NCBI RefSeq assembly: GCF_000230715.2
Contig: NC_019792.1
Location: 2,418,001-2,482,000 of the forward strand
Direction of reading: 5' to 3'
Origin: Natronobacterium gregoryi SP2
GTDB taxonomy: Archaea; Halobacteriota; Halobacteria; Halobacteriales; Natrialbaceae
Length of the DNA: 64,000 bases
Shown: positions 1,836 to 17,505 of the stretch, piece by piece
How positions within the stretch are numbered: position 1 is the stretch's first letter
Layout: the number at the start of each line of letters is the position of its first letter
Translations under genes and position numbers: made by a program
The notes under the pieces: model-generated
What the model was told of the DNA's origin: nothing
The model's database searches: none
What the model saw: the letters and a program-made list of their open reading frames with translations, nothing else

Positions 1836-3065
1836 TCACTCCTCGAAGACGTCTTCGAGTCGTTCGCGCATGAACTGTCTCCGATACTGCCGCCGTTCCG
1901 TCTCCGAGAGGTAGTTCTTCAGGACCACCGAGGAGTCGGAACTGCCCTGCTCGGCCGCGATTACGTCCAGATTCTCCCGCAGGTCCTTCATCGCCTGGTT
2001 GTACGTGGTATACCAGAACCGCCGTCCCATCTTCGAGGTTGGTAGTTCTCCCTGCACGCGGACGCCAGCGTCTTCGGCGAGTCGCTGGAACCGAGCCTGG
2101 ACCGTCTCGCCTGTAATGTGGCCGCTCGCGGACCGACTCGAGGGGAACAGATAGCCTGCCCAGTCGAGGTCACCCTCGAGTCGGTCGACTCGGGCGGTCA
2201 GGTTCGGCGTGCCGTAAATCAGTGCGACCGTCCCTGGCCCGTTCTTTCGTTCGTCACCAAAGGCGATGTGAGGGTCCTCACCTTCGAGGACCAGTTGTGA
2301 GGTATGCAGTGCTGCGACCTCGTTGCGTCGCAGACCCCACGCACAGAGTGCGAGGACGACGAGTTGTTCGGCCTCCGTCTCGGAAGCGTCGTACAGCCGA
2401 CTTACCTGTCGGCCCGTGAGAGCGGCGTTGTCGGGTTCTTCGCGAGACCAGTTGTACTCCTCGTCGATGTGCTCGACGGGGTTGAACGCGGCCTTGGCCC
2501 GTCGCCCGAGGTGCTCGTAGAACTGGCTGACGTCGCTGAGATACCGTAGCTTCGAAGCGTCGGTCCCCAGTTTGTAGTTGAGTTCGTCGAACACGACTAG
2601 CGCACGCCGAATCTCGTCGCTCTCGCTCGTCGCGTCGTCGACGCGATCCACGAGATCGGCTTGCCCGTGTACCTCCCGGTAGATTCGGACGTAGGTCGCC
2701 AGGCGGGACTGTTTTGTCTGGACTGTCGACGTCGCGAGTTGCCGCCGTCGCTCGAGCGTCTCGAGATACGACTCGAGTTCGTCGATGGTCGTTTCGTCTT
2801 CGATACCCCACTGGTACGACGTCGAGGAACCGGGCTCCTCGTAGCCGACCGTCGCCAGGAACTCCGTCAGCGTCGTGTCGTGGTGTTCCCGCAAAGCGTA
2901 GGCGATCCCGGAGTAGCCCGCGTCGGCGACTTGCTGGTAGGCTGGGCGCTCTTCGCGGCCGATCCCGGACCGCTCGAGAGCGGGTTCGATTTCGTCGCTC
3001 CAAAACGACTGGAGTTCCTCGAGAGACATCTGCGACCAGCGGATCGTCGTCCCGTCGTTGCTCAT
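1836..3065 (-). CDS. Tyrosine recombinase/integrase family protein with atypical box II
   Basis: 409 residues with the layout of a tyrosine site-specific recombinase: a helical core-binding domain (about residues 90-190) and a catalytic domain. Visible candidate residues are Arg246 in WGLRRNEVAAL, Lys274 in DERKNGPG, Arg348 in SKMGRRFWY, and the nucleophile Tyr385 in LKNYLSETE. The usual HxxR box has Lys at the His position, so catalytic competence is uncertain. It lies directly upstream of Rio2 in the same direction and no tRNA is near, so it need not mark an integrated element. It could instead be a chromosomal recombinase. Start ATG 3065. Confidence 0.75.
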   Translation of the reverse strand: MSNDGTTIRWSQMSLEELQSFWSDEIEPALERSGIGREERPAYQQVADAGYSGIAYALREHHDTTLTEFLATVGYEEPGSSTSYQWGIEDETTIDELESYLETLERRRQLATSTVQTKQSRLATYVRIYREVHGQADLVDRVDDATSESDEIRRALVVFDELNYKLGTDASKLRYLSDVSQFYEHLGRRAKAAFNPVEHIDEEYNWSREEPDNAALTGRQVSRLYDASETEAEQLVVLALCAWGLRRNEVAALHTSQLVLEGEDPHIAFGDERKNGPGTVALIYGTPNLTARVDRLEGDLDWAGYLFPSSRSASGHITGETVQARFQRLAEDAGVRVQGELPTSKMGRRFWYTTYNQAMKDLRENLDVIAAEQGSSDSSVVLKNYLSETERRQYRRQFMRERLEDVFEE

Positions 3066-3268
3066 CGGTCGCCCTCACTGGCGTTGGGTTCGCGGGTTTC
3101 GTCCGTCGGTGTTCTCCCTCTCGCAGTGCCGGTCCGTTTCCGGGAAAATCCGGGTTGTCTGTCCCAGAGTGGACTCTCGTTTTCACCGGCTCGACCCCAG
3201 GGGTTGTGTCCGGAAGAGACACCTCGAGACGATGGTCGTTCGACCCGGACTGACTCGGTGTTCGACAT
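3062..3268 (-). CDS. Possible small charged protein upstream of the recombinase
   Basis: A 68-codon frame whose TGA overlaps the recombinase ATG in an ATGA arrangement, which suggests translational coupling. The product is rich in Arg, Ser, Glu and Gly and resembles no family I know. An AT-rich stretch about 25-50 bp upstream (near 3295-3320) could hold the operon promoter. The composition is also what a random frame in GC-rich DNA would give, so support is mainly positional. Confidence 0.3.
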   Translation of the reverse strand: MSNTESVRVERPSSRGVSSGHNPWGRAGENESPLWDRQPGFSRKRTGTARGRTPTDETREPNASEGDR

Positions 3269-5256
3269 CTCGTACCGTCACGTACTCATGACAGTCACGT
3301 AAAGATATTGCTTAATCGGTTGTCGTGTAGTGGACAAACGATTCAAGCAATAATCGGGCCTGAGCCAAAACCTCTCTCTTAGGCGCTTTGCATCCGGTTT
3401 ATAGCATACTCGGTGGTGGACCGGAGGTGGGGTGGTTCGGAAGACCGGTTCGTCGGGGACTCATCGCTGCACGGCTGTCGCCGATCACAGCCGTCCCACT
3501 CAGGAGAGAGCCACTAAGACGAGAGTGAACCAGCGATCGTGACCGGGGGCCACGATAGGTGCCGTATCGGCTCTCCCTCTCCCACAGCAGGTGGGCCTGT
3601 CAGTCGCCAACCGTCGGGATCGTTCCCTCGAGCGAACTGCGTCCCCGGTGATCGGGGCCTGACTACACCCCAGTACCCGAACGACGCCGGTGACGAAACG
3701 ACGCGGAAGAGCGACGAACGGACACCGGAAGACACGTGGTGAAGACGTGATCCCCGACTGCAGCGCCTCGAGACCGTTGTCGCGTGACAGGGTCGTAGAA
3801 CTCACGAAGACGCCAGGGGAGCTCACGACCCGCTGGTGGGCTGCGGACGGTTACGTGCCGGCTACGGCCACAGCCAGCCCCCTCGAGTTCGTCTCTCGGT
3901 CGCCGACGAACGAAGTGCCGTCGTTTCCGCCCGGTGACCGCAGACGGAGCGGGCACGAGGCCCGATCCGTTTCGATTCGAGTACCGATCGACAGAGAGAC
4001 AGCGGGTGTGTCTCGGGGTCGTGCGAAACTCGAAGCGTTTCGTGACGAGGAGACTCAGACGGCGTCTCGAACCACGCGGCCCCGAGGCCGAATCGTGTCT
4101 CTATGACTGATTCTGCCGTAAGATCCTCTTGCTTTGGAGCCCACATCGAAGCGATTCACGCCGCTGACGACTGGCGAAAGCGGCGGCGGATCTCGTTTCG
4201 GGACCGCCCGCAACTCATACGCTTGGCTTTAGTCGACTCGAGAGCACACCCAGCGAGCGAGTCGCGACAGTGAGTGATCGCTTCCCGCCGTGAACAGAGC
4301 GGGACCGAAGATCACTCGGGCAGTCCGGTGTAGCTCGACGACAGCGAGGGTGCCAACGATACCGCACCGTCGAGTTGGGATCGTTGCTGCTAGACGGTGG
4401 TTGTGTCGACGTTGTCGGATTCACGGCCGTCGAGCAAGCTGACGGTTTGTGATACCCAGCAGAACGCGGGGCGTCCTGTGGATATCGTAAACAGCGTGGC
4501 GTCGGAGACGCCACGAATAGACAACGCACCGTCGACGACGGGATGCTCTCTTGCAAAAAGAGAGATTAGCGACAGCCAAGAGAACCGAATACAGAGACGG
4601 AGCCACAATTCCGGATTCTTGCAACCGTGACGTGTTCGTCTACGGAGAGCAGCGAAACCCTTTCCTCACGTCTTTCTGTGCTGATCGCTGCTCTGTTGGA
4701 TGCCTGCGAACAGGAGTCCGTCACGATGAGCGGCGGTCGAATAAACTTTATATTGCTATATCAATTTCGGAGGGTGTGCTCCACAGATTCTGCGTTTGGA
4801 TTTCTACAAACCGCCAACTGGGAAACATATTTTGCAGACTCCGAACTAATTCAGTGCTTCGTAAGCGTTAGTCGACACGCCTCTCTCAAGAGTAAACTAA
4901 GAGAATGTTGGGTTATCAGCCCGTTTTGTAGTAGGATAGATCCTAAATCGATCAGTTCCCACTACAATTCCACCCACGGAGGATGGGATTGATGCGCACC
5001 TTACTTGCGGCGTTGTGAGGAGTGAACCCGCTGATCAGTAGGGGCAAGCAATTGTCAAAAAAAGGTGATCAAGCACTCCGATAGCTGTTAAACTCTACCC
5101 TCTGCATACAGAGGACGTATTCCGCAATCTGAGTTTGATCTATCTTCAAGAAGCTGGCGTTTCTATAGGCACCCTGCGGCCAGGGGATGTTCTACCAGCA
5201 CTGAACCCCGGGTGAGTCATCACCATTTCACTTATGTCACAACAATCTGCTTCTAT
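3269..5256. other. Two-kilobase region without recognisable genes
   Basis: No reading frame here shows a known motif, a convincing start or haloarchaeal codon bias. Composition changes inside it: 3400-4300 is GC-rich, whereas 4500-5250 is clearly AT-richer and continues into the low-GC patch that holds the IS element. A 121-codon frame at 4627-4992 on the plus strand is the longest in the AT-rich part but is Ser/Cys-rich and unlike known proteins. I see no SRP RNA, RNase P RNA or tRNA hallmarks. Decayed foreign DNA is the simplest reading. Confidence 0.45.
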
Positions 5257-5595: not shown

Positions 5596-6292
5596 GGTCG
5601 TGTTTAGTTAAGGCTGAAGGATGAGGCGAGGAGATTTTCAGCTGGGCTATGGCGAAAATCGCTCGCCTCAGTGGTCGTAGCGACTGGATCGAATTAGACT
5701 TTGTGGAGCGAGAGCGGACACCGCGCCAGCTGATGAAGCTCGGTATTCGGCTACATCTTGCGGGGTTATCGCTTTCGAATACAGTTCGGGAATTAGAGAA
5801 GTTCGGTGTCAAACGGTCGCGGAAAGCTGTTCACGACTGGGTACAGAAAGCAGATCTACAGCTGGCCAGCAACGCGAGTCCGGATCACGTTGCGCTCGAC
5901 GAGACGGTGATCCGAATCAACGGCCAACAGTTCTGGCTGTATGCTGCGGTTGATCCCGACACAAACGATTTCCTGCACGTGCGGCTGTTTACAACGACTA
6001 CGACGGCATTGACACAGCGGTTCCTGCAAGAACTTCGTGAGAAACACGACGTCGATGACGCCGTGTTTCTCGTCGATCATGCCCATCATCTAGCGACAGC
6101 ACTCCAGCGAATCGGGCTCCGATTTCGACCCGAGCGACACGGAAATCGGAACGCTATCGAACGTGTTTTTCGGGAGATAAAACGACGCACCTCCTCGTTC
6201 AGTAATAGCTTCAGCCACGTCGATCCATCAACCGCCGAAACGTGGTTGCAAGCCTTCGCTGTCTGGTGGAATTTGCGTAACTAAACACGATG
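5596..6292 (+). mobile_element. Intact IS6-family insertion sequence
   Basis: A 697-bp element. Terminal inverted repeats share TCGTGTTTAGTTA (5598-5610, and its complement at 6278-6290). Perfect 8-bp direct repeats CCTTTGCT flank it at 5588-5595 and 6293-6300; 8 bp is the length IS6-family elements duplicate. It carries one transposase gene. Identical flanks and an open frame imply a recent insertion. Confidence 0.93.
5649..6284 (+). CDS. IS6-family DDE transposase
   Basis: 211 residues, full length for the haloarchaeal IS6 group. An N-terminal helix-turn-helix-like region (about 25-65, RTPRQLMKLGIRLHLAG and RSRKAVHDWV) precedes the RNase-H-like catalytic core. The catalytic acids can be seen: Asp in VALDETVIRI, Asp in VFLVDHAHHL, and Glu in GNRNAIERVFREIK. 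The enzyme would move the surrounding 697-bp element by replicative transposition. The stop at 6282-6284 lies 6 bp after the start of the right inverted repeat. Confidence 0.93.
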   Translation: MAKIARLSGRSDWIELDFVERERTPRQLMKLGIRLHLAGLSLSNTVRELEKFGVKRSRKAVHDWVQKADLQLASNASPDHVALDETVIRINGQQFWLYAAVDPDTNDFLHVRLFTTTTTALTQRFLQELREKHDVDDAVFLVDHAHHLATALQRIGLRFRPERHGNRNAIERVFREIKRRTSSFSNSFSHVDPSTAETWLQAFAVWWNLRN

Positions 6293-6374
6293 CCTTTGCT
6301 TGGGAAAACCGGGAAATAGACAGGAGACAGAATAGATCGGTGGGGTTTACAGTCTCGGATGACTATCCGAAAAT

Positions 6375-6569
6375 ATGTCCGAATCGACTACTATAACGGG
6401 GATCGCGAAGAATCTCCTTATTTATGCCGTGGGCGTTGGCTTCGCCGTCACCGGTGCGCTAGGAATCGCGGAGGCATTTGACCTGCCCCTCCCACTCGCT
6501 GGCGTACTTTTTGTTGCAGGGTTAGCAGTCGTACTGTACGTTCATGAGTATCTCGGCGGGCCGCTTTAG
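6375..6569 (+). CDS. Small two-helix membrane protein
   Basis: 64 residues starting MSESTTITGIAK, with two hydrophobic stretches (about 12-32 and 36-55) and a short polar tail. Small integral membrane proteins of this type are common in haloarchaea, but I cannot name a function. The gene begins 75 bp downstream of the IS element's target duplication, so its original upstream context has been changed by the insertion. The frame has an ATG start and haloarchaeal composition. Confidence 0.6.
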   Translation: MSESTTITGIAKNLLIYAVGVGFAVTGALGIAEAFDLPLPLAGVLFVAGLAVVLYVHEYLGGPL

Positions 6570-6948
6570 GACCGTTGCGGAATCACGAACATAGTGTTAT
6601 GCAGATTCATTGCCATATAATAGAGTGAGTCTGGTCGTCGTTCCAGTAGTTGGATAGCAGTCCCCCTTTCGAAAAACAGCAGTCTATGACGCTCTACCGT
6701 GGTATCTTTATGTCTGAAAGCAAAGATAACTACATCCAATATTTACATCTGTCATTCGGGATAGAATATATAGTGGCGGAATTGACGTAATGAAGTCTCG
6801 TTTAAGAGTTGGTTAGTCAATGAATGTCCACTTTGATGAATTGATACTTTCAAGCCTCCCCATACGCAGTCTTGCGATTAGAAACTTGATATCCAACTAC
6901 AATTGGTGCTTGCTCGGGAAAAAGACACTTTGGCGAATAATCACAGCG
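6570..6948. other. AT-rich spacer upstream of the decayed USP gene
   Basis: This stretch contains several AT-rich runs (for example 6758-6775) that could act as promoters, but no gene of its own that I can support. A frame open from 6820 runs into the USP pseudogene. Its first 40 codons do not look like USP and are probably accidental. Confidence 0.4.
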
Positions 6949-7333
6949 ATGAACGCGAGAGCAGTTGTGATCAACAGTTCGACTGGAGACATTGACCGGC
7001 TTCTCGTCCCGCTGACCGGTATGGTCGATACAGACCGGATTTTCGAGTACGTTAGCAAGGTGATTGGACCCGTGACATCGGCGTTACGCTGTTCGCTTCC
7101 GGGGACGTGACGAAGGAGCCGATGGTTCACTCGAGGACGCTGCCGACGTTTTTCGTGATGGAGGAATAGACACTCACGTCAGACAGCCGTTCGGCGCGCT
7201 CGTTGACGCCGCATCAGACCATAACGTGATCGTCATTGGTGAGAGAGTACCCTCGCTGCGGTCGGTGCTGTTCGGTGACGAGGCCGAACGAGTCGCGACA
7301 GGATTTGTCTTCGTCGTTCGAACGGTCGAGTGA
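6949..7333 (+). pseudogene. Decayed universal-stress-protein domain gene
   Basis: Three pieces in three successive frames together spell a USP-like domain. They are VVINSSTGDIDRLLVPLTG (frame from 6949), a short DIGVTLF piece near 7074, and a long tail with DAASDHNVIVIGERVPSLR and ending FVFVVRTVE, stop TGA 7331-7333. This order (strand, ligand loop, GE.. motif, terminal VVR strand) is that of USP domains, often attached to haloarchaeal transporters. At least two frame changes and probably small deletions have removed function. It lies tail to tail with the antiporter operon. Confidence 0.7.
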
Positions 7334-7372
7334 AGGTGAGGTCGATCACCGGGTAAAGCAGGATTGGGAACG

Positions 7373-9052
7373 TTAGTCCCCCATTCGGCTCCCGAATCCC
7401 ATCCGCTCGAGGGTGACGAGCCTGTCGAGATGTTCCTCTCGAAGCTCTTCTTTGGCGTCGTCCTCAAGAACCCGATCAACGTTCTCGAGGAGCTGATCCG
7501 AGGCGAGGATGTTCGGGACGCTGACATAGATCGCGCCGCGCTCGAGCCACTCGCTGGCTTTCCAGGAGGACTGTGATCGCAAGATGACGTCGGCGTCGCT
7601 CTCGAACTCGAGGATATACTCGGAAGCGGGCTGGTGATCGACCGTCGAGACGATCAGCTGTGCGTTCTTGAGGTCGGCTTTCTCCCAGGGGTAGTCGGAC
7701 ATTGCGTCGCCGAAGACGTAGTTTCGACACTCAGCGCGCATGTCGTCCCAGAGGACGGGATCGTTCTCAATGACCACGTAGTCACGTTCGTTCTCTTCAC
7801 ACACCTCGACGACGTGGCGGCCCTGACGACCGTAGCCGACGACGATCACGTGATCGGTGAGGTCGTCTTTGACCTGGCTTCGCTCGTCAATCTTTCGGGT
7901 CTGTTGGCCCGAGACGAAATCCTCGAACAGGAGTCGGTAGATCTCGTCCTCGTAGCGGCGAGTAAACGTCGTCATGAGCATTGTCACCGCCGCCGCGAGG
8001 ATGATCGCGTCGAACATGACCGGTGAAATCGTCCCGAGCAACAGCGCCTGGATGGCGATGACGAGCGAGAGTTCACTCACCTGGTTCAGGTTCGTGGTCG
8101 TAAGAAAGGCCGTCCTGGCGTCGTACCCCTCGTAGGTAAAGGCGACCATCGTCACGAAGGGGTTGACGATCAGGACGAGGGCGACGAGCATGAGCGTGAC
8201 GACGAACACCTCGAAACTGGGGATCGAGACGAGTGCGCCGACGGTGACGAAGAAGATCGCGACGAAGAAGTCCCGGATCGAGTTAAGCCCGTTGATGACG
8301 CCGAGGGCTTCCGAGCCGTCCCGGCGGATCCCGATACCGGCGGCGAACGCCCCGACGACGATCGAGACGCCCGCAAGTTCGGCCGCTGCGAGGAAGACGA
8401 TGAGGATCGAGATACTTCCCATGAGGATCAGTTCCTCAAAGCCCTCCGTCAGCCGGACGAGAAGCGGGAAGCCGTGTCTGTAGACGAGCAAGCCGGCGAC
8501 CAGGAAGAGAACGCCGTAGCCGATCTTCGACGTAATTACCTCGGCGGTGAACACCTCCGCCGAGAGGATGAGGATGAGTCCGATGGCGACCAGGTCATCG
8601 AAGAAGTGGATCGACGACGCCAGCCGCCCGTAGACGAGGTTAGACCTGATCTCTCCCTTGAGCAGCCGGGAGCCGACGATGGTCGAACTCAAGGTCGCGG
8701 CAGCGGCGAAGTACACCGCGTTCAGGGTATCGAAGCCAAAGAGGGTCGCGACGACGAACGCGACCGGCGCGACGACGATGAGCTGGGCGACAGCGACGGC
8801 TTCGCTGTCACGGAGCACCGACTGAAGCTCACCAAAGTCGACCTGCGTCCCGAAGACGAACACGAGGAAGGCGATTCCCCACTGGGCGAGTTCGAGCAAC
8901 TGCCCCTCCTCGATCACCGTCCCCGAGAGCAACCCGGCGAGGATGAAAAACGGTACCGGGGACAGCGAAAAGTGATTTGCGACTATGAGCAGTACGCCCG
9001 CCGTGATGAAGATGATCGCCAGTGCGGTAATTACGTCAGTCATCGTCGTCAC
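7373..9052 (-). CDS. CPA2-type cation:proton antiporter with TrkA-N domain
   Basis: 559 residues. Residues about 5-380 form some 12-13 membrane helices of the KefB/NhaS CPA2 family. The segment LSSTIVGSRLLKG is followed by HFFDDLVAI, whose aspartates are candidate ion-binding residues. A cytoplasmic Rossmann (TrkA-N) domain follows, with an intact nucleotide motif VVGYGRQGRHVV. It probably exchanges Na+ or K+ for protons at the cell membrane under NAD(H) control. The start at 9052 overlaps the previous gene by 17 bp; ATG 9043 is an alternative. It forms an operon with the upstream antiporter. Confidence 0.85.
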   Translation of the reverse strand: MTTMTDVITALAIIFITAGVLLIVANHFSLSPVPFFILAGLLSGTVIEEGQLLELAQWGIAFLVFVFGTQVDFGELQSVLRDSEAVAVAQLIVVAPVAFVVATLFGFDTLNAVYFAAAATLSSTIVGSRLLKGEIRSNLVYGRLASSIHFFDDLVAIGLILILSAEVFTAEVITSKIGYGVLFLVAGLLVYRHGFPLLVRLTEGFEELILMGSISILIVFLAAAELAGVSIVVGAFAAGIGIRRDGSEALGVINGLNSIRDFFVAIFFVTVGALVSIPSFEVFVVTLMLVALVLIVNPFVTMVAFTYEGYDARTAFLTTTNLNQVSELSLVIAIQALLLGTISPVMFDAIILAAAVTMLMTTFTRRYEDEIYRLLFEDFVSGQQTRKIDERSQVKDDLTDHVIVVGYGRQGRHVVEVCEENERDYVVIENDPVLWDDMRAECRNYVFGDAMSDYPWEKADLKNAQLIVSTVDHQPASEYILEFESDADVILRSQSSWKASEWLERGAIYVSVPNILASDQLLENVDRVLEDDAKEELREEHLDRLVTLERMGFGSRMGD

Positions 9053-10784
9053 CTCCGACCTCAGCGCGGGTGGTATCAGTCACGTCGGCGGAGTCGATCA
9101 GTCGCCCGCGGCGCTGGATTCGTTCGACGTCCGGGCGGATCGCCTCTGTGAACGCACGACGGTCCTCGAAGTACGTTCGCAGGTAGTCGTTCATTTTCTC
9201 CGCGCTCAGGTACGTGCTCATGACGACGCAGTTCGCACCGCGATCGTAGAGGTCGCGAGCGTCGTCGATCCGTTCTGCTTCGACGAACACCGTCGCGTCG
9301 TCGTCGACCTCCTCGAGTAACACCTTGTTGACGTCGACTTCGACACTCGAGCTGAGGACGAAGTTCGCGTCCTTGAGGTTCGCGGCCTTGCGCACCTCGC
9401 GGTGGCGGAAGTCACCGAAGATGTAGTCGTACTCGTCTTCGGCCTCGAGTTCTTCGATGTGATCTGTCTTCCGGTCGATGACGACGACGTTGCCGTACTT
9501 CTCCTTAAGTAAGGAGAGTGCGCTCTCGGTGATCTCGTCGTAGCCGATCGCAATGGCATGATCCTCGTAGGTCTTGAGGTCGGTGTCTGTCTTCTCGTCG
9601 CTGTCGAAGCGCTCGAACCACGGCCGGACGCGCTCGTAGATCTCGTGGTTGTACATGACGATGTATGTCGAGACGCTCATTGTGAGCAACGCCATGAGGC
9701 TGAGGTAGCCGAGGATGTCCGAGCCGATGTATCCCTGCGTGAACGCGAGCGCGCCGACGACCAGTGAGAACTCACTGACCTGGACCATGTTGATCGAGCC
9801 GAGGAACGAGGTCTCGACGCTGAAGCCCTCTCGGTCGATGAGATAGAACATGATCCAGAAGTTCCCGACCATCAGGACGACCGAGGCGACGATCGCCTGC
9901 CACCAGTAGGCAAGCAGCGCGTTCACGCCGTCGATCTGGAGACCGATGCTCGCGAAGAACACGAGGATGAAGAAGTCCGTGATCGGCGTGATGCGGTCCT
10001 CGAGTTCCTTGCTGTAGGGCAGCTGTGCGAGGCTGATCCCGGCGAGGAATGCGCCGACCTCGACGGAGAGTTCGAACTCCTCGGCGATAAAAATAAAGAG
10101 GAACGCCCAAGCGATCGCCACGAGCAAGAAGACGTCCTTGTTGTCGGCGATGCGGCGGAACAGTCGCGGGAGGAAGTATCGGGAGGAAGCGATCGAGAAG
10201 ATGCCGATGAACGCCATCATGACGAAGATGACGCCAAGGGTCGTGGCAATCTCGGTACCAGTCTCGAGAGAGTCAGCCGCGAACAGCGCAAGAACGACGA
10301 CAAGATAGATGTCCTGAACGATAAGCACACCGACGTCGATCTTCCCTGGCAGGGAGGTGATCTCGTCTTTGTCGGTGAGGATCTTGACAATGATCGGCGT
10401 CGCACCGAAGACGGTCGCCAGCGCGATAACAAGGATTTCGGTCGTGTCGAATCCGAGTACCCAAGCTACGAGAAACGCGAGTGCAGTCTGGAGGACGGTC
10501 TGCCCGATGGCGACGTTCGTGATCGGGCGGAGGATCTCCCGAATGTCGTCGAAACGCATCTTCATACCAAGCAAGAAGAGTAGAAACCCAAGCCCGAGCT
10601 CGGCCATGCTTTCTACGAGGGGGTCTTCGGGGCCGACAATCCCGAACACTACAGGACCCAGGATGACACCCGTTAGGATGTAGGCGATGATCGTCGGCTG
10701 GCCGAACTGCCTGGCTAGGATGCCGATGACAGTCGCGACGACAACGATAATTGCGAAGTCTGCCGCAAGTGCGATTTGACTCAT
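9036..10784 (-). CDS. CPA2-type cation:proton antiporter with degenerate TrkA-N domain
   Basis: 582 residues: about 12 membrane helices (residues 5-385) and a C-terminal Rossmann-like domain. The helix pair carries FGATPIIVKILTDKDEI and VLIVQDIYLVV; the QD pair is where KefC-type antiporters place their ion-binding Asp. The nucleotide motif reads AIGYDEITESA and lacks the normal GxGxxG, unlike its downstream partner. First gene of a two-gene operon, with a TATA box 40-50 bp upstream of the ATG at 10784. The two products may form an unequal pair; that is inference. Confidence 0.85.
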   Translation of the reverse strand: MSQIALAADFAIIVVVATVIGILARQFGQPTIIAYILTGVILGPVVFGIVGPEDPLVESMAELGLGFLLFLLGMKMRFDDIREILRPITNVAIGQTVLQTALAFLVAWVLGFDTTEILVIALATVFGATPIIVKILTDKDEITSLPGKIDVGVLIVQDIYLVVVLALFAADSLETGTEIATTLGVIFVMMAFIGIFSIASSRYFLPRLFRRIADNKDVFLLVAIAWAFLFIFIAEEFELSVEVGAFLAGISLAQLPYSKELEDRITPITDFFILVFFASIGLQIDGVNALLAYWWQAIVASVVLMVGNFWIMFYLIDREGFSVETSFLGSINMVQVSEFSLVVGALAFTQGYIGSDILGYLSLMALLTMSVSTYIVMYNHEIYERVRPWFERFDSDEKTDTDLKTYEDHAIAIGYDEITESALSLLKEKYGNVVVIDRKTDHIEELEAEDEYDYIFGDFRHREVRKAANLKDANFVLSSSVEVDVNKVLLEEVDDDATVFVEAERIDDARDLYDRGANCVVMSTYLSAEKMNDYLRTYFEDRRAFTEAIRPDVERIQRRGRLIDSADVTDTTRAEVGGDDDD

Positions 10785-10825
10785 CGAAGGATCCGACTCT
10801 TTGGTGCGGATTTGGGAATCCGGCG

Positions 10826-10833
10826 TTTATATG
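10826..10833 (-). promoter_or_regulatory. TATA box of the antiporter operon
   Basis: On the minus strand the sequence reads CATATAAACG, a good archaeal TATA element, 42-49 bp before the ATG at 10784. Transcription would start near 10805, giving a leader of about 20 nt. Confidence 0.5.
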
Positions 10834-10992
10834 TTGTCTTTCCCGGTGACATCTGCGGAGAATATACTGACCGATCAATAATCCTCACAGATACCGCCAC
10901 AGTATGTGTCACATTCCCGCCCTCCAACCTTCACATTATTCAGAATATATATGTTTTGTGGAAAGATGTAGTTAGCGTTCAGGAGTTTGTCT

Positions 10993-11529
10993 TCACTCAC
11001 TATTCCCTTCGGATTGGTCGTCTGTGATGGACTCGAGGGATTCTTCCATCCGTTCGAAATGAGCTTCACGGAGCGCTTCCTCGGACGGCTCTTTCTGCAC
11101 GACAGATGTACCCTCGGGCAGATCTACGTCCTCATCCACCAATGGATCTACGTCGACTACCATTTTGCGAATCTCCATATCCCGATTGATTTTCCCGACC
11201 AGCTGCTCGAACGCCGTCTCACGTTCCTGTCGAACCCGCCGGAGCTCTCGGACCTTCCGCTCGAACTCCGTCTGTACTGCCCAATCATGCACCCGACGCC
11301 CGAGGATCGTGAGCGCATACCGCTTCTCTGTTCCATGCTCGGTTGGCCTGTGGCTCACCGTGAGCACCTCACGCTCAACACCTTCCGAGAGCCGCGAGGA
11401 CATCGTCGAGCCACTGACCGCGACCGCGTCGGCGAGTGTGTTAAACGTTGCTGTCCCCGTCCCGATCTCCGTGATAAGTTCTGCCGCGCCCTTCTTCCGA
11501 AGAAACGCCTCGAGTTCGTCCAATCCCAT
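10993..11529 (-). CDS. Winged-helix transcriptional regulator
   Basis: 178 residues. The first 90 form an ArsR/HxlR-like winged helix: the recognition region is TFNTLADAVAVSGSTMSSRL, followed by the wing at LTVSHRPTEHGTEKRYALT. Residues 90-130 are strongly charged and probably make a coiled coil for dimerisation, and the tail is acidic. It lies just upstream of the antiporter operon in the same direction, 208 bp away, so regulation of that operon is possible but unproven. Start ATG 11529. Confidence 0.75.
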   Translation of the reverse strand: MGLDELEAFLRKKGAAELITEIGTGTATFNTLADAVAVSGSTMSSRLSEGVEREVLTVSHRPTEHGTEKRYALTILGRRVHDWAVQTEFERKVRELRRVRQERETAFEQLVGKINRDMEIRKMVVDVDPLVDEDVDLPEGTSVVQKEPSEEALREAHFERMEESLESITDDQSEGNSE

Positions 11530-11826
11530 CGTACCTACCTGTTCTCAGTCCACTACTATAAGTCCAACCGATATTCGATTTATACTGATTCTTGATTCAC
11601 ATCGAATTGTAGCCACAATCAATTCTCCAAGTATAGCACGCATATCTCTTCATATGTCCCCCACCACAAGCTAAGAGCAGACAACCGACACTAATGCACA
11701 ATCAGATTTTCGCTCTATCCTATACTGATATTTACTCCTTCTCAGCAGACATTTCTACGCACTATCACTCCAGTATCTGGTCGAATACAGCCCAAGAATA
11801 GAGCAGTTCGTCTATGAGGTGGCTCA

Positions 11827-13557
11827 ATGTCGACTGATCCGTCGGCTGTCGCTGAGTCGATCATTGTCCACGCGGAGACGCTCTGTGAGCGTGAAGACCA
11901 CCTCTGGGATGTCATCCGGAAACTCTCAATACCCGTCGACGAACTGGAGGATGCCCGCGATCAGAACCGCGTAACCTTTGGAACTGACGAAATGTTTCGC
12001 ACGCTCCTGTTCAAAGGGATTCGAGGCATTTCACAGAACAAAATAGCGCAACGGCTCGGTCGGGAGCCGAGCTTAGTCAAGAGCTTCCACCTCGATATCA
12101 CCGATCTCTCGAATACGCCCACCCAACAGGAGCTTTCGTACGCGCACGCGAAGTTCAGCGAGAACACTCAGAAAATCCTCAATCGGACGGTTGCTGGCGT
12201 CCGGCAGGAGGCTCTCGATAACGGTGTTCTTACAGAAGGTCTCGTCCCCTCAGTCCCAGCCGAAACCGAGGAGGAATCACAAAGCGAGAACGAGTACAAG
12301 AAAGAGAAGGCCCAGAAGACGCTAACACTTGCTCGCAAACACGTCATTCCCGAGTTCGACACACACCGAGCGGCCCACAAGAAGTACTCAGACGAGGTGA
12401 TGCTGGATATGTTTGCGAGTATCTGCGCGAACAACGGCAGTGCCCACTCAGAAGCCGAGTACGGCTGGCTCACCGACGACGACCTCATCTGCGACGACTC
12501 GACCTTCCTACGGGCAATCAAGAAGATTGCCACGCCCGAGGATTCGGACGGCCAGCTCACGTTGGAGGACTTCGAGGACGATGATTCGATGCCCGAGATC
12601 GACCAGATTCGGGACACGATTATGACGGCGTTCAATGCTGCCACGGAAAACATCATTAACTCGATCCGTGGCGACGACCCCTTCGACTCACGCGAAACCG
12701 TCGCAGCGATCGACATCACCCACGAGCAGTTCCACGTCTGGCCGTGGGAAGACAAAGAAGCAGGCATCGCGAAGCCAGACTATCCGAAGATGGTGAGCGG
12801 GTACAAGAAAGACGGCGAGTACAAACGTGGGTACAAGTACGCTACCATCACGCTAGTTGGCGACCACGCACCGATCGTTCTTGGTATCGAGCCAGTCAAA
12901 GAGGACTCTGCGTGGGAGCCCGACGACTCTCCATCGTACTCGAAAGCCGATTTAGTGAGTCGATTGCTCGATCGAGCAGAGCAGTTCGTTGATCTGGATA
13001 TGGTGATGTTCGACCGCGGATTCTACGTGAATCGCGTGTACGCAGATGTCCACGAGCGCGGGCTCACGTATCTCTCGCCAGTTCCAACGTACGAGGATGA
13101 TTTAGAGGCGATCCAGGATATTCAAGAGCATCCAACGGCAAACGAAGCTGTCAAGCACAACGTCCCGTTCGGAATCGACGGTGAGATCCACCACGAGGCT
13201 GAGTTTCTCTATGCCCCAAGTACGAGCGACGATGCCGATGGAAAGTATGCAGTATTCGTGACGAACCAGGACCGCGTTGAGCCCGAGGAGATCTCAAGTG
13301 TCGTGAACGGATACAGTCGCCGCTGGGATATCGAGAACCAGTACAAGTCAATCAAGGACTTCATGCCGAAGACGTCGTCGACGGACTACCGCCTTCGCCT
13401 GTGTAACTTCGCGCTGTCGACGCTGATCTATAACCTGTGGCGGCTCACAGATTATCTAATCAAGGTCGCGCTTGACGAGCCGATCCGGTCACCGCCAGTG
13501 ATCACGGCGAAGACGTTCGTTCGAGCGTTGGGCGACTTCCTGCGTGAGTTCGGGTAA
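11827..13557 (+). CDS. Large DDE transposase of the haloarchaeal ISH3/ISH6-like kind
   Basis: 576 residues with the RNase-H-fold signature of IS4-like transposases: VAAIDITHEQF (first Asp), DMVMFDRGFY (second Asp), and SRRWDIENQYKSIKDFMP with the catalytic Glu (YREK-like region). The N-terminal third contains a charged linker near residues 135-160. The length is above that of most IS4-like enzymes. I could not find matching terminal inverted repeats or target duplications by eye, so this may be a solitary or old copy, although the frame is intact. Start ATG 11827. Confidence 0.8.
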   Translation: MSTDPSAVAESIIVHAETLCEREDHLWDVIRKLSIPVDELEDARDQNRVTFGTDEMFRTLLFKGIRGISQNKIAQRLGREPSLVKSFHLDITDLSNTPTQQELSYAHAKFSENTQKILNRTVAGVRQEALDNGVLTEGLVPSVPAETEEESQSENEYKKEKAQKTLTLARKHVIPEFDTHRAAHKKYSDEVMLDMFASICANNGSAHSEAEYGWLTDDDLICDDSTFLRAIKKIATPEDSDGQLTLEDFEDDDSMPEIDQIRDTIMTAFNAATENIINSIRGDDPFDSRETVAAIDITHEQFHVWPWEDKEAGIAKPDYPKMVSGYKKDGEYKRGYKYATITLVGDHAPIVLGIEPVKEDSAWEPDDSPSYSKADLVSRLLDRAEQFVDLDMVMFDRGFYVNRVYADVHERGLTYLSPVPTYEDDLEAIQDIQEHPTANEAVKHNVPFGIDGEIHHEAEFLYAPSTSDDADGKYAVFVTNQDRVEPEEISSVVNGYSRRWDIENQYKSIKDFMPKTSSTDYRLRLCNFALSTLIYNLWRLTDYLIKVALDEPIRSPPVITAKTFVRALGDFLREFG

Positions 13558-14207
13558 CGCTTTTTTCACTCCGAGTTCACCGATTCGGTAGCGGCTGCGC
13601 TGTCGGTTTTCTCGGATTTTCGCGACAACCGTCATATTGTTAATGATTCGTAGTTGCTAATTCGATCTCGTCCGATTTTCACACCGAATTTGGAGTCACC
13701 AGCTCGTGAATTTCCTAGTTTCATTTGTAGGTTTATAAGCACGCGAAGAATGTGGTGCTCGGAGTTGGTCGACAGGGCCTTTGGCTACCCGGACTGGGAT
13801 TGCCGGTCGGGTTCGACGAGCGTGCTCCTGGGGCGAGGACCCGGCGAGCACATCTCGAGTCCGGTAAGTTCGCCCTCGAGCAGGGTCAGAGGGAGACAGT
13901 GGCGACCGCTTCTTTTAGGGCAGTCGTTTTTCTTCCGGATGTCGGGAAGAGTTCGCGGCGGTCGTCTGCGCGGTCGACCTCGTATTGGATCGACCCGGAC
14001 GGCGACGGCAGGGATGTGCCTCGAGGACGTCGGGTGGCCGGCGGATCGACGTGCTGACCGAGCGCGGGAACGAGGCGCTACCAGGGTGGAGACGCCGAAT
14101 CGGAGAAGTTGCTGTTTGGTTCTCAGATGACTGCCGTGTGTCGATGCAGTCCGACCGTGACCAGCCGACGGTCGGTCAGGTCGAACTGGACAGCCGAGCG
14201 GCTCGAT
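13558..14207. other. Intergenic region downstream of the transposase
   Basis: The first 180 bp are AT-rich and may include the right end of the transposon. From about 13740 the sequence is GC-rich but no frame has protein-like features. It separates the transposase from the opsin-like gene, which ends facing it. Confidence 0.4.
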
Positions 14208-14957
14208 TCACTCCGTCGATCCAACGTCGGTAGTGGACGGTGCCGGTTGCTCGGCCGGTCGGCTGACGATCGACAGCGGTGAAGGGGCGTGCTCGCTCTC
14301 GAGTGCGTCGGCGTACCGAAGAACGAGCCCGCCGAAGCCGAGGAGCCAGACGAGATCGAGGTAGGTCGTAACCGTTTGCCCGACGAACGCGCTCGTGAGA
14401 CCGAGCTGTTGCTCCGAGACTGTGCCGAGCGTGAGCATGACGACGAAAACCAGCAGAATCAGGAACTTGAGCTTGGCATACAGCAGCGCTCGCTGTCCGC
14501 CGACGCGGGTCGCGTTGCGGGAGAACGGCCCGAGCAAGACGTATCCCATCCCCACCAGAGACCCGACGGCAACGAGCGAGACGGCCACGGCGGCAACTCC
14601 AGTGACGAACCAGCTCGCGAAGGCTGCCCACAGTGCGCCGAGAACGGTGGCGACGAGCGCGAACAAGGACTGCCGATCGGCGTCGACGATCGCTCCGAGA
14701 ACGAGGCAGACGGCGGACCAACCGACAGTGTACCCCAGGAAGCGCGTCACCGATTCGGTACGCCCTGCCAAATCGACTGTCAACACCCCGGTGGACATGA
14801 GGGCGTACGCGACGCTCATCGACCCACACGCGATCACGACCGCGTATCCGTGAGAGCGAGCGCCCACAGGAACTCGGAACGCCCACAGCAGGAACGCGAC
14901 CGTCATCGCGCCGAGCAATCCACTCGAGACCGCAAAGAGTGTGCCGTGTTCGATCAT
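14208..14957 (-). CDS. Opsin-like seven-helix protein lacking the retinal lysine (copy 1)
   Basis: 249 residues, seven membrane helices, clearly of the microbial rhodopsin fold. In helix C, TRFLGYTVGW ends before VDADR, which aligns with VDADQ of bacteriorhodopsin. Arg72 therefore matches Arg82, but the proton acceptor Asp85 is Gly75 and the donor Asp96 is a hydrophobic residue. In helix G, YLDLVWLLGFG aligns with VLDVSAKVGFG, so Asp201 (Asp212) is kept while the Schiff-base Lys216 is Leu205. Retinal cannot attach in the normal way, so pumping is unlikely; a class of type 1 opsins without the lysine is known. A GGAGG ribosome site lies at 14971-14975. Confidence 0.88.
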   Translation of the reverse strand: MIEHGTLFAVSSGLLGAMTVAFLLWAFRVPVGARSHGYAVVIACGSMSVAYALMSTGVLTVDLAGRTESVTRFLGYTVGWSAVCLVLGAIVDADRQSLFALVATVLGALWAAFASWFVTGVAAVAVSLVAVGSLVGMGYVLLGPFSRNATRVGGQRALLYAKLKFLILLVFVVMLTLGTVSEQQLGLTSAFVGQTVTTYLDLVWLLGFGGLVLRYADALESEHAPSPLSIVSRPAEQPAPSTTDVGSTE

Positions 14958-15513
14958 CGTCGCTGTCTTTCCTCCGAGTCGGATTGCACGTGTTTCGGCC
15001 GATACGACTGCCGTCTCCGCTGGACGTGGAACGATTGTGGTTTCATTGTCTTTCGTTCCCGTATGAGGTTTGTATACACCGCATCACGAAATTCACGTGT
15101 CAGATACAATAAAGACTGTTGCCGATTTCTTCGAAGACTGTGCAGATCCGAGTTTGAAGGAGCGAAACAATTGCCTTCTCTCTTCAGAGTCTGAAATTTA
15201 TATGGGGCGCACTACTCTGCAGTGGCGTTTTGTTAGAATTAGGGAATGTAATGTGCTCCGTGCGGGCTGTTGTGTTCGAGCATTCAACCTCAACTGCACG
15301 GACGATTCGTTCCGGATACTGTCTTTCTCCTGTATACGTTCGGTCTCGAGCGGGTGTCGTCTACGATCCGTGACTGATACTGCCGGACAGACCGACGTGA
15401 CGATCGGTCGCTCTGTTGGGGCCGTCACCGGTGGAGGCGGCCGCGAATCCGCGACCGACTTCGTATTGACTTTTGTCCGACAGTATGAACACGAGAATCG
15501 AGAAAGTAGTCGA
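14958..15513. other. Spacer between the two opsin-like genes
   Basis: 556 bp separate the two paralogues, so they are probably transcribed separately. 15060-15250 is AT-rich and may hold the promoter of copy 1, implying a long leader. No coding frame in the spacer is convincing. Confidence 0.4.
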
Positions 15514-16239
15514 TCAGTCGGGCTGTCCGTGAGTACCGCCGCGTGTGACTTTCGAAAACGGTGACGGAACCTCTTCTGCCTCGAGTGTGTCGGCGTACTG
15601 GAGCACGAGTGCTCCAAAGCCGGCGAGCCAGATCAGGTCGACATACGTTGCGACAGTTTGGCCGACGAAAGCCCCAGTCAGACCGAGATTCTGTTCGGAG
15701 ACGGCGCCAGTCAGGATCAGGCCCGTGAAGACAAGTAGGATCAGCCGCTTTACCTTCGTATACAGCAGGGCTCGCTCTCCAGACACAGTCTCGGCGACGC
15801 TCGAGAGTGGCCCCACCAGAAGATAGACCATCCCGCCCAGCGAAACGAGAAGAACGAGGGAAGCGACTGCCGCGATTGTCCCGTCGAAAACCCAACTGGC
15901 GAGTGTCGCCCAGGGCGCGGCGAGGACGGGTCCGATGAGCGCGAGCGTCGTCCGGCGGTCGGCATCGACGATCGCGCCGAGAACGAAACAGACGACCGAC
16001 CAGCTGACGGTGTACCCGAGGAATCGAACGACAGACTCCGTCCGTCCAGTCGTCTCGACTGTCAGCAAGCCAGCGGCCATGAGCGCGTAGGAGATGCTCA
16101 TCGATCCACAGGCGACTAACACCGCGTATCCGTACGGTCGAGCACCAGTCGGCACTCGTAGCGTCCACAGTGCGAACGCAACCGTCATGCCCGCGAGCAA
16201 TGCACTCGTGGCCGCAAACAGGGTTCCGTGCTCGATCAC
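15514..16239 (-). CDS. Opsin-like seven-helix protein lacking the retinal lysine (copy 2)
   Basis: 241 residues from a GTG at 16239, chosen because it gives MIEHGTLF, the same beginning as the neighbouring paralogue, and has an AGGTGG ribosome site just upstream. More than half of the residues match copy 1. The same replacements occur: RFLGYTVSW with Gly at the Asp85 position, and YVDLIWLAGFG with Asp201 kept and Leu205 in place of the Schiff-base lysine. The GRTESV loop and AFVGQTV helix start are shared. Conservation of both genes as full-length frames argues for function, perhaps sensing or membrane structure, not light-driven transport. Partners are not evident nearby. Confidence 0.87.
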   Translation of the reverse strand: MIEHGTLFAATSALLAGMTVAFALWTLRVPTGARPYGYAVLVACGSMSISYALMAAGLLTVETTGRTESVVRFLGYTVSWSVVCFVLGAIVDADRRTTLALIGPVLAAPWATLASWVFDGTIAAVASLVLLVSLGGMVYLLVGPLSSVAETVSGERALLYTKVKRLILLVFTGLILTGAVSEQNLGLTGAFVGQTVATYVDLIWLAGFGALVLQYADTLEAEEVPSPFSKVTRGGTHGQPD

Positions 16240-16659
16240 TGCCAACCACCTGCCCGAGTTGTCGGGTTCGACGCCAGGCCCGCCAGTCGAGACGACGGTG
16301 TCGACCGGCGCGTGGTCGACGCTCTCTGTCCGTGAGCCAGCGGTAGTGATCGGAAACGATACTGTCGATCTCGAGCGATAGCGGTTATGACGTTCGAACT
16401 CATCTGTTGGTCGTCACGATCGCAGACACCAGTGGTGCGTCGCTGGTGTGGCGCGATCGCGTCTCGTCAGATACGTCGGCGGTATGAACATATAGGTGTT
16501 GTTGCAGATGGTGTCGCTATCCGAACTCCCGTCAGTCCGTGACGGCGGAACCGCAAACAGAGTGCAGTTGCGTAGATAAGGCATTACAGTCGGATCGTTT
16601 CACGGACTCGGCCGACGACCATCGGAATCGATTTGCACGTCGCTTGCGTGACTCGTCCC
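16240..16659. other. Divergent spacer between opsin-like gene 2 and the lipoate ligase gene
   Basis: 420 bp separating divergent genes; promoters for both must lie here. I see no coding frame of merit. The AT-rich tract near 16485-16500 is a weak candidate promoter. Confidence 0.35.
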
Positions 16660-17505
16660 ATGACCGAAACCGAACTCGCCGACCGAGAGTGGCGACTGCT
16701 CCGGGACGAACCCCGGGATGGAGCCACCCAGATGGCACTCGAAGAGGTTGCCGCCGAGCGCGCGCTCGAGCACGACCTGCGGACGGTCCGGGTCTACTCC
16801 TGGGAACCGAGTACGCTCTCGCTGGGCTATCGGCAAGACGCTGCGTCGGTCGACTGGGAGTATTGTGAGCGCGAGGGAATCGATGTCACTCGCCGACAAA
16901 CCGGTGGTGGCGGGATCTACCACGACCGCTACGCAGACATTTCGTACACGATCGTCGCACCGGCAGACGAAGTGCCTGGTGATCTGATGGACTGTTATGC
17001 GCTGTTTTGCGAGCCGGTCCTCGAAGCGTTCGATCAGATGGGTGTCGACGCGGACTTCGCAGCGGCCGAACAGGCGTCGATCTACCACCCCTCGTGTTAC
17101 TTGCGGGATATCAATCCAGCCCACGACGTCGTTGTGCCGGCAGGCGAGGCCGACGCGCAGAAAATTAGCGGCAACGCCCAGTACCGCCAGCGCGATGTCG
17201 TCATCCAGCACGGGTCGATCAGCTACGACCTGGAACCCGACCATCACGTCGGCGTCTTCGACGCCGGCCTCGAGCCCAGAACCGTCACGGATCGTGTGAC
17301 GAGCATCCGCGAGCAGGTCGGGATCGACCGCGAGGAGGCGGTCGAGACGCTCGCCGACGCGTTATGCGACTGGTGTGACGCCGCGGCGGGAGGATGGCAC
17401 GAAGACGAACTCGAGCGGGCGGCCGATCTCGCGGACCGGAAGTACGGATCGGGCGCGTGGGTTCGCAAGCGAGAGACGCTCGAGGGCGACGACGCACGGA
17501 CGTGA
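16660..17505 (+). CDS. Lipoate-protein ligase A family protein
   Basis: 281 residues from ATG 16660; an upstream ATG at 16633 would add nine residues unlike the family. The biotin/lipoate ligase fold is shown by TRRQTGGGGIYHDRYAD (substrate loop RRxTGGG) and by the lysine motif QKISGNAQYR. Such enzymes attach lipoate or octanoate to E2 and GcvH proteins through an adenylate. In archaea a separate small C-terminal domain protein is sometimes needed. Here the C-terminal part (about 215-281) may serve, with GVGS-like segment KYGSGAWVRK typical of LplA. Substrate specificity cannot be told from sequence. Confidence 0.85.
   Translation: MTETELADREWRLLRDEPRDGATQMALEEVAAERALEHDLRTVRVYSWEPSTLSLGYRQDAASVDWEYCEREGIDVTRRQTGGGGIYHDRYADISYTIVAPADEVPGDLMDCYALFCEPVLEAFDQMGVDADFAAAEQASIYHPSCYLRDINPAHDVVVPAGEADAQKISGNAQYRQRDVVIQHGSISYDLEPDHHVGVFDAGLEPRTVTDRVTSIREQVGIDREEAVETLADALCDWCDAAAGGWHEDELERAADLADRKYGSGAWVRKRETLEGDDART

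Follow-up and report, generated by a model that had tools for sequence, protein, structure and literature searches.

In teaching, type-1 opsins figure as light-only proteins. Lysine-less opsin-related proteins (ORPs), with Leu or another hydrophobic residue at position 205, were described by Becker et al. (2016; PMC4915679), and the class was published without a demonstrated stimulus or partner. In their group B, an adjacent HAMP/MCP transducer is frequent (17/32) and not a defining feature (Becker et al., 2016). The fungal opsin-related proteins and algal Rh-noK can be likened to the ORPs by description, as relatives of type-1 opsins in which the Schiff-base lysine is missing; the fungal proteins lost it separately (Becker et al., 2016). 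In Natronomonas pharaonis sensory rhodopsin II (NpSRII), Y199 touches N74 in TM2 of the transducer HtrII, and T189 touches E43 and S62 (PMC6798134). A retinal-free proteo-opsin with bound decanoate is a precedent for a non-retinal, amphipathic or lipid-like ligand in an opsin pocket, although in that protein decanoate is a placeholder that the lysine, missing in ORPs, holds in position (PMC11322631; PDB 8cnk).

The window analysed here is a 64,000-nucleotide stretch of Natronobacterium gregoryi SP2 (NC_019792.1, positions 2,418,001 to 2,482,000) and belongs to a single contig of 3,788,356 bp. It contains two ORP genes with intact reading frames, ORP1 and ORP2, which are separated by 556 bases and whose products share 62% identity across 241 residues (Table 1). 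The orthologs of ORP2 begin at the same (M/V)IEHGT. The 94 bases immediately upstream of ORP1 share 73% identity with the Halobiforma nitratireducens locus (blastn), which is consistent with a promoter separate from that of ORP2. The match upstream of ORP2 to genome G083 reaches 74% over 150 bases and 72% over 280 bases including the gene start, and this region is likely the ORP2 promoter. The two genes are flanked by a lipoate ligase gene on one side and by a transposase gene and antiporter genes on the other; no partner-like gene was found in the ORP-side flanks inspected. A tblastn search for a decayed transducer, using all ORP-neighbouring transducers, gave no match in the window, and a tRNA was the sole match in Rfam.

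Table 1. Features of the ORP locus (window positions) and candidate transducer partners elsewhere in the genome (genome positions).
Feature	Position	Strand	Remarks
ORP1 (P0001)	14208..14957	(-)	ATG start at 14957; 249 aa; retinal-free opsin-related protein
ORP2 (P0002)	15514..16239	(-)	GTG start at 16239; 241 aa; retinal-free opsin-related protein
ORP1-ORP2 intergenic region	14958..15513	.	no transducer gene or remnant (MCP tblastn)
Region upstream of ORP2	16240..16463	(-)	likely ORP2 promoter; blastn match to the ORP2-ortholog locus in G083
Stretch downstream of ORP1, up to transposase gene	13558..14207	.	no transducer remnant
Lipoate ligase-type protein gene (context)	16660..17505	(+)	same neighbour in H. 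nitratireducens and G037
Orphan ORP-type transducer	3,105,530-3,107,161	(-)	intact, 543 aa
ORP-linked transducer (other candidate partner)	near 869 kb		
HtrII (other candidate partner)	near 1.794 Mb		

Homology to type-1 opsins spans all seven helices of ORP1 and ORP2 (Pfam, phmmer and the A2 alignment). ORP1 scores above the curated Pfam Bac_rhodopsin cut-off of 24.6 bits (25.6 bits) and ORP2 just below it (22.1 bits); an NCBIfam search matched no family. NpSRII is the nearest solved relative of ORP1 (phmmer E=8.2e-14, residues 13-229), a match that speaks against a fold unrelated to opsins and bears out the tandem opsin-fold pair proposed in the initial annotation. An AlphaFold model built from a three-sequence alignment has seven helices and is too weak for pocket inspection (pLDDT 50, pTM 0.44); a Foldseek search with it listed SRII at the top (TM 0.29, E 0.017), which is not counted as evidence.

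In NpSRII numbering, where R72 and D201 correspond to R82 and D212 of bacteriorhodopsin (BR), both proteins keep Y51, R72, Y199 and D201 and share the changes D75G, W76Y, T80W, F86V, F127S, W178G and K205L. Position 174, a Tyr in NpSRII, is Met in ORP1 and Leu in ORP2, and position 189, at which most ORPs conserve Asp, is Ser and Gly, respectively. The residues read earlier from the sequence (the retained Arg and Asp, Leu205 at the Lys216 position, Gly at Asp85, no donor Asp) all hold in this alignment. Lysine is restricted to K162 and K164, at the cytoplasmic E-F end, and to K230 in the ORP2 tail, and neither sequence has an alternative lysine in helix G. The hallmarks of sensory rhodopsin II, K205, D75 and an adjacent HtrII gene, are absent, whereas the true SRII of this genome (L001) does have an adjacent HtrII gene. 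Neither protein qualifies as a BR-type proton pump, with G75 at the acceptor position D85 and V86 at the donor position D96; the absence of a donor Asp is inherited, because sensory rhodopsins already have a non-donor, F86, at this position.

ORP1 and ORP2 could still be photoreceptors if they bound retinal or another carotenoid non-covalently. Retinal is available in this host, which has Brp/Blh and two canonical opsins, and Becker et al. (2016) left an alternative chromophore open. However, the pocket residues at positions 76, 80, 127, 174 and 178 are replaced, a purified Natrialba magadii ORP showed no retinal absorption, and two ORPs purified with excess retinal lacked absorption at 480-580 nm (Becker et al., 2016). 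Moreover, 26 of the 51 ORP-bearing genomes of the family have neither a canonical opsin nor Brp/Blh, which extends the eight species of Becker et al. (2016). Canonical opsins track Brp/Blh (63/72, p=3e-26, genomes treated as independent), whereas ORPs show no association with Brp/Blh across the family genomes (p=0.37), as expected for retinal independence. We consider a light-sensing role for ORP1 and ORP2 very improbable.

In a quick tree of 98 opsins (SH-aLRT supports, no bootstrap), all 83 lysine-less haloarchaeal rows fall on one branch with a support of 99, apart from the SRs, BRs and HRs. This clade stands beside the sensory rhodopsins and includes ORP1 and ORP2, which, judged by their sequences, are group-B haloarchaeal ORPs, a class already described, as the initial annotation had noted of lysine-less type-1 opsins in general. 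They resemble group B in the hydrophobic residue 205, the lost retinal pocket, the retained R72, Y51 and Y199 and the sister position to sensory rhodopsins, and they show its pocket marks (W178 to G, F127 to S/T, Y174 to L, with Y51 and R72 kept), save for Met174 in ORP1 (Becker et al., 2016). They differ from it in lying side by side without a transducer, in Ser/Gly at position 189 and in Phe171, which both share with their own 11-row clade.

The closest named relative of the source genome is H. nitratireducens. ORP1 groups with the single same-locus ORP of that species (L037, 81% identical, support 100), ORP2 with the single same-locus ORP of G083 (L040, 78% identical, support 95), and the four sequences form one group with a support of 97. 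The duplication therefore predates these species, and one or the other copy was lost in each sister, an old duplication followed by differential loss. The two genes are therefore not the conserved duplicated pair that had been supposed: of the 125 family genomes, this one alone has a pair of adjacent ORPs that lacks a transducer, and the other arrangements are ORP-transducer-ORP, transducer-ORP or a lone ORP.

Both copies are under purifying selection. Pairwise codon-model fits, in which more diverged pairs have high dS, gave an omega of 0.27 for ORP1 (against H. nitratireducens L037) and 0.17 for ORP2 (against G083 L040), with 2dlnL against neutrality of 37 and 80. ORP1 and ORP2 evolve faster than transducer-linked ORPs (omega 0.07-0.08), which could reflect relaxed partner contact. 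The faster rate, together with the loss of each copy in one sister species, would also suit dying duplicates, non-functional opsin copies that are intact by chance. This is already disfavoured and very improbable, given omega values well under 1 and intact frames with identical key residues that persist across different species. Furthermore, when nine ORPs from four species were tested, four of them from N. gregoryi, transcription was seen for eight (Becker et al., 2016). ORP1 and ORP2 were probably among the N. gregoryi ORPs tested, since this genome has exactly four ORPs, the same count.

Among the core ORPs, defined by G75, the residues F73, G75 and Y76 are present in 48/48 and W80 and G178 each in 41/48. 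Strict conservation of the altered pocket across these 48 sequences marks it as remodelled rather than decayed. These ORP-specific residues, the intact frames and the omega values below 1 show a constrained function, in agreement with the retained role suggested in the initial annotation. Glycine at position 75 occurs in 48 of the 50 rows with an uncharged residue 205 and in none of the 48 with a basic one. We claim no significance for this joint loss of the charges at positions 75 and 205, since the tree shows only one or two independent switches.

The remaining evidence concerns the transducers. Directly 3′ of an ORP-type transducer, often with a 4-nt overlap, lie 39 of the 67 ORPs examined, and these transducers align to solved HtrII chains (E ~1e-29). 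As in the NpSRII/HtrII complex, which the ORPs resemble in their seven-helix fold, R72 and D201, both sides of the Y199-N74 contact are retained. Y199 is invariant in 27 R205 ORPs, in 48 G75 ORPs and in 9/9 SRs, including ORPs unlinked to a transducer, and is V/A/M/L in BR and HR; the N74-equivalent Asn is kept in 11/12 ORP-type transducers, orphans included (A1, against NpHtrII chains). The T189-E43-S62 contact is not kept, the S62 equivalent being Ala; the ORP1/ORP2 system further differs from NpSRII/HtrII in lacking K205, D75, the retinal pocket and a transducer next door. D189 was considered as a marker of transducer linkage and rejected, as inspection showed no association.

ORP-type transducers are confined to ORP genomes, which is a new observation. 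Full-length copies occur in 27 of the 125 family genomes, all 27 of which have an ORP (Fisher p=1e-13, genomes treated as independent), and 26 of 27 core-ORP genomes encode one, the exception being an 85%-complete draft.

In four genomes (this one, here G000, and G080, G037 and G035), an intact ORP-type transducer stands without an adjacent ORP, and all four carry unlinked ORPs elsewhere. Synteny indicates loss of the adjacent ORP in G000, G080 and G037. The flanks of the N. gregoryi orphan match G083 and G081, where a transducer-ORP pair stands, and the ORP is gone without a remnant beside the transducer, as in the equally clean loss in G080. In G037, an ORP remnant comprising only helices F-G (L128:5725-5985) directly follows the intact transducer, so that this genome appears to be losing the ORP while the transducer stays; in G035, too, an ORP-type transducer lacks a neighbouring ORP. 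The two orphans measured have an omega of 0.064-0.070, nearly as constrained as a linked pair (0.048). The simplest reading, suggestive and not proof, is that orphan transducers serve ORPs encoded elsewhere; they occur in two genera only, and the decoupling events are few and give no independent statistical test.

We propose, with about an even chance of being right, that ORP1 and ORP2 are retinal-free sensor subunits of a two-protein receptor that signals through an HtrII-like transducer in trans. The ORP ancestor would have been SRII-like, losing retinal binding and keeping the face that holds the transducer. A non-retinal stimulus, either a small molecule from outside or a membrane state, would shift helices F and G; TM1 and TM2 of the methyl-accepting transducer would read the shift and pass it via CheA to the flagellar motor. 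The non-light stimulus, a ligand and its extracellular entry, the pairing in trans and the motility output are what we infer. The outer half of the sensor may form the stimulus side, with Y51, E68, R72, E182-Q183 and Q194 possibly clustered in an outer cleft, by analogy with bacteriorhodopsin numbering (R82, E194 region); Becker et al. (2016) modelled an outer pocket in ORPs. Any coupling would have to be in trans, because there is no transducer gene at the locus, and the best candidate partner would be the orphan transducer that lost its own ORP. The absence of a transducer or remnant beside ORP1 and ORP2, Ser/Gly in place of D189 and an omega above that of linked ORPs count against this proposal.

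The same absence of a local partner is compatible with ORPs that act without a transducer, for instance as a membrane regulator or scaffold or with a soluble partner, co-resident transducers being coincidental. Such action has been proposed for unlinked group-B ORPs, some of which have stress genes nearby (Becker et al., 2016), and of the 58 ORPs placed on the tree, 26 lack a transducer immediately upstream, linkage having changed seven times along its branches. However, neither the invariance of Y199 in unlinked ORPs nor the transducer in nearly every core-ORP genome fits well with coincidence, and the lipoate ligase, transposase and antiporter genes flanking ORP1 and ORP2 are not partner-like. 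This explanation is possible and, on balance, unlikely. As a tentative extension of signalling in trans, which we think unlikely, several unlinked ORP sensors may draw on a single HtrII-like transducer, or on a small number of them, in a mix-and-match system. Sharing would explain both the persistence of transducers after ORP loss and the presence of at least one in nearly every core-ORP genome.

If ORPs are non-light receptors and HtrII-like transducers relay their signals, the opsin fold of microbes would be a general sensor scaffold, like the GPCR fold. With the intact and constrained orphan transducer in the same genome, pairing in trans can be tested specifically, ORP1 and ORP2 serving as two diverged sensors.

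Other ORPs of the family differ at position 205. A Natrialbaceae branch (L080, L085, L086, L091-L093, L095 and L097) has Arg205 with Asp75 (Glu in one row), and each member lies just 3′ of a transducer of ~700-770 aa, the two genes in most cases overlapping by 4 nt. A further branch (L165-L168), in which residue 205 is His, falls outside the two groups of Becker et al. (2016), Arg and hydrophobic. Elsewhere in the N. gregoryi genome, a Piwi-domain gene with a 901-aa frame (G000:C1:2526851-2527672; L201) is probably the N. gregoryi Argonaute.

Several features lie between ORP1 and a tyrosine-recombinase-like gene (1836-3065) in the window. They comprise a DDE transposase (11827-13557), a pair of neighbouring Na+/H+ exchanger-TrkA_N genes (7373-10784) and another, putative transposase-like frame (5649-6284), and the genes at 5649-13557 are missing from the sister loci and look like inserted cargo. 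About 1.3 kb of a 4.3-kb gene-poor stretch (within 3041-4770) shares 69-72% identity with the H. nitratireducens locus; it matched nothing in Rfam, and the two loci showed no reading frame consistently in common. Upstream of the recombinase-like gene, identity to H. nitratireducens rises to 55/60 bases at 3279-3338.
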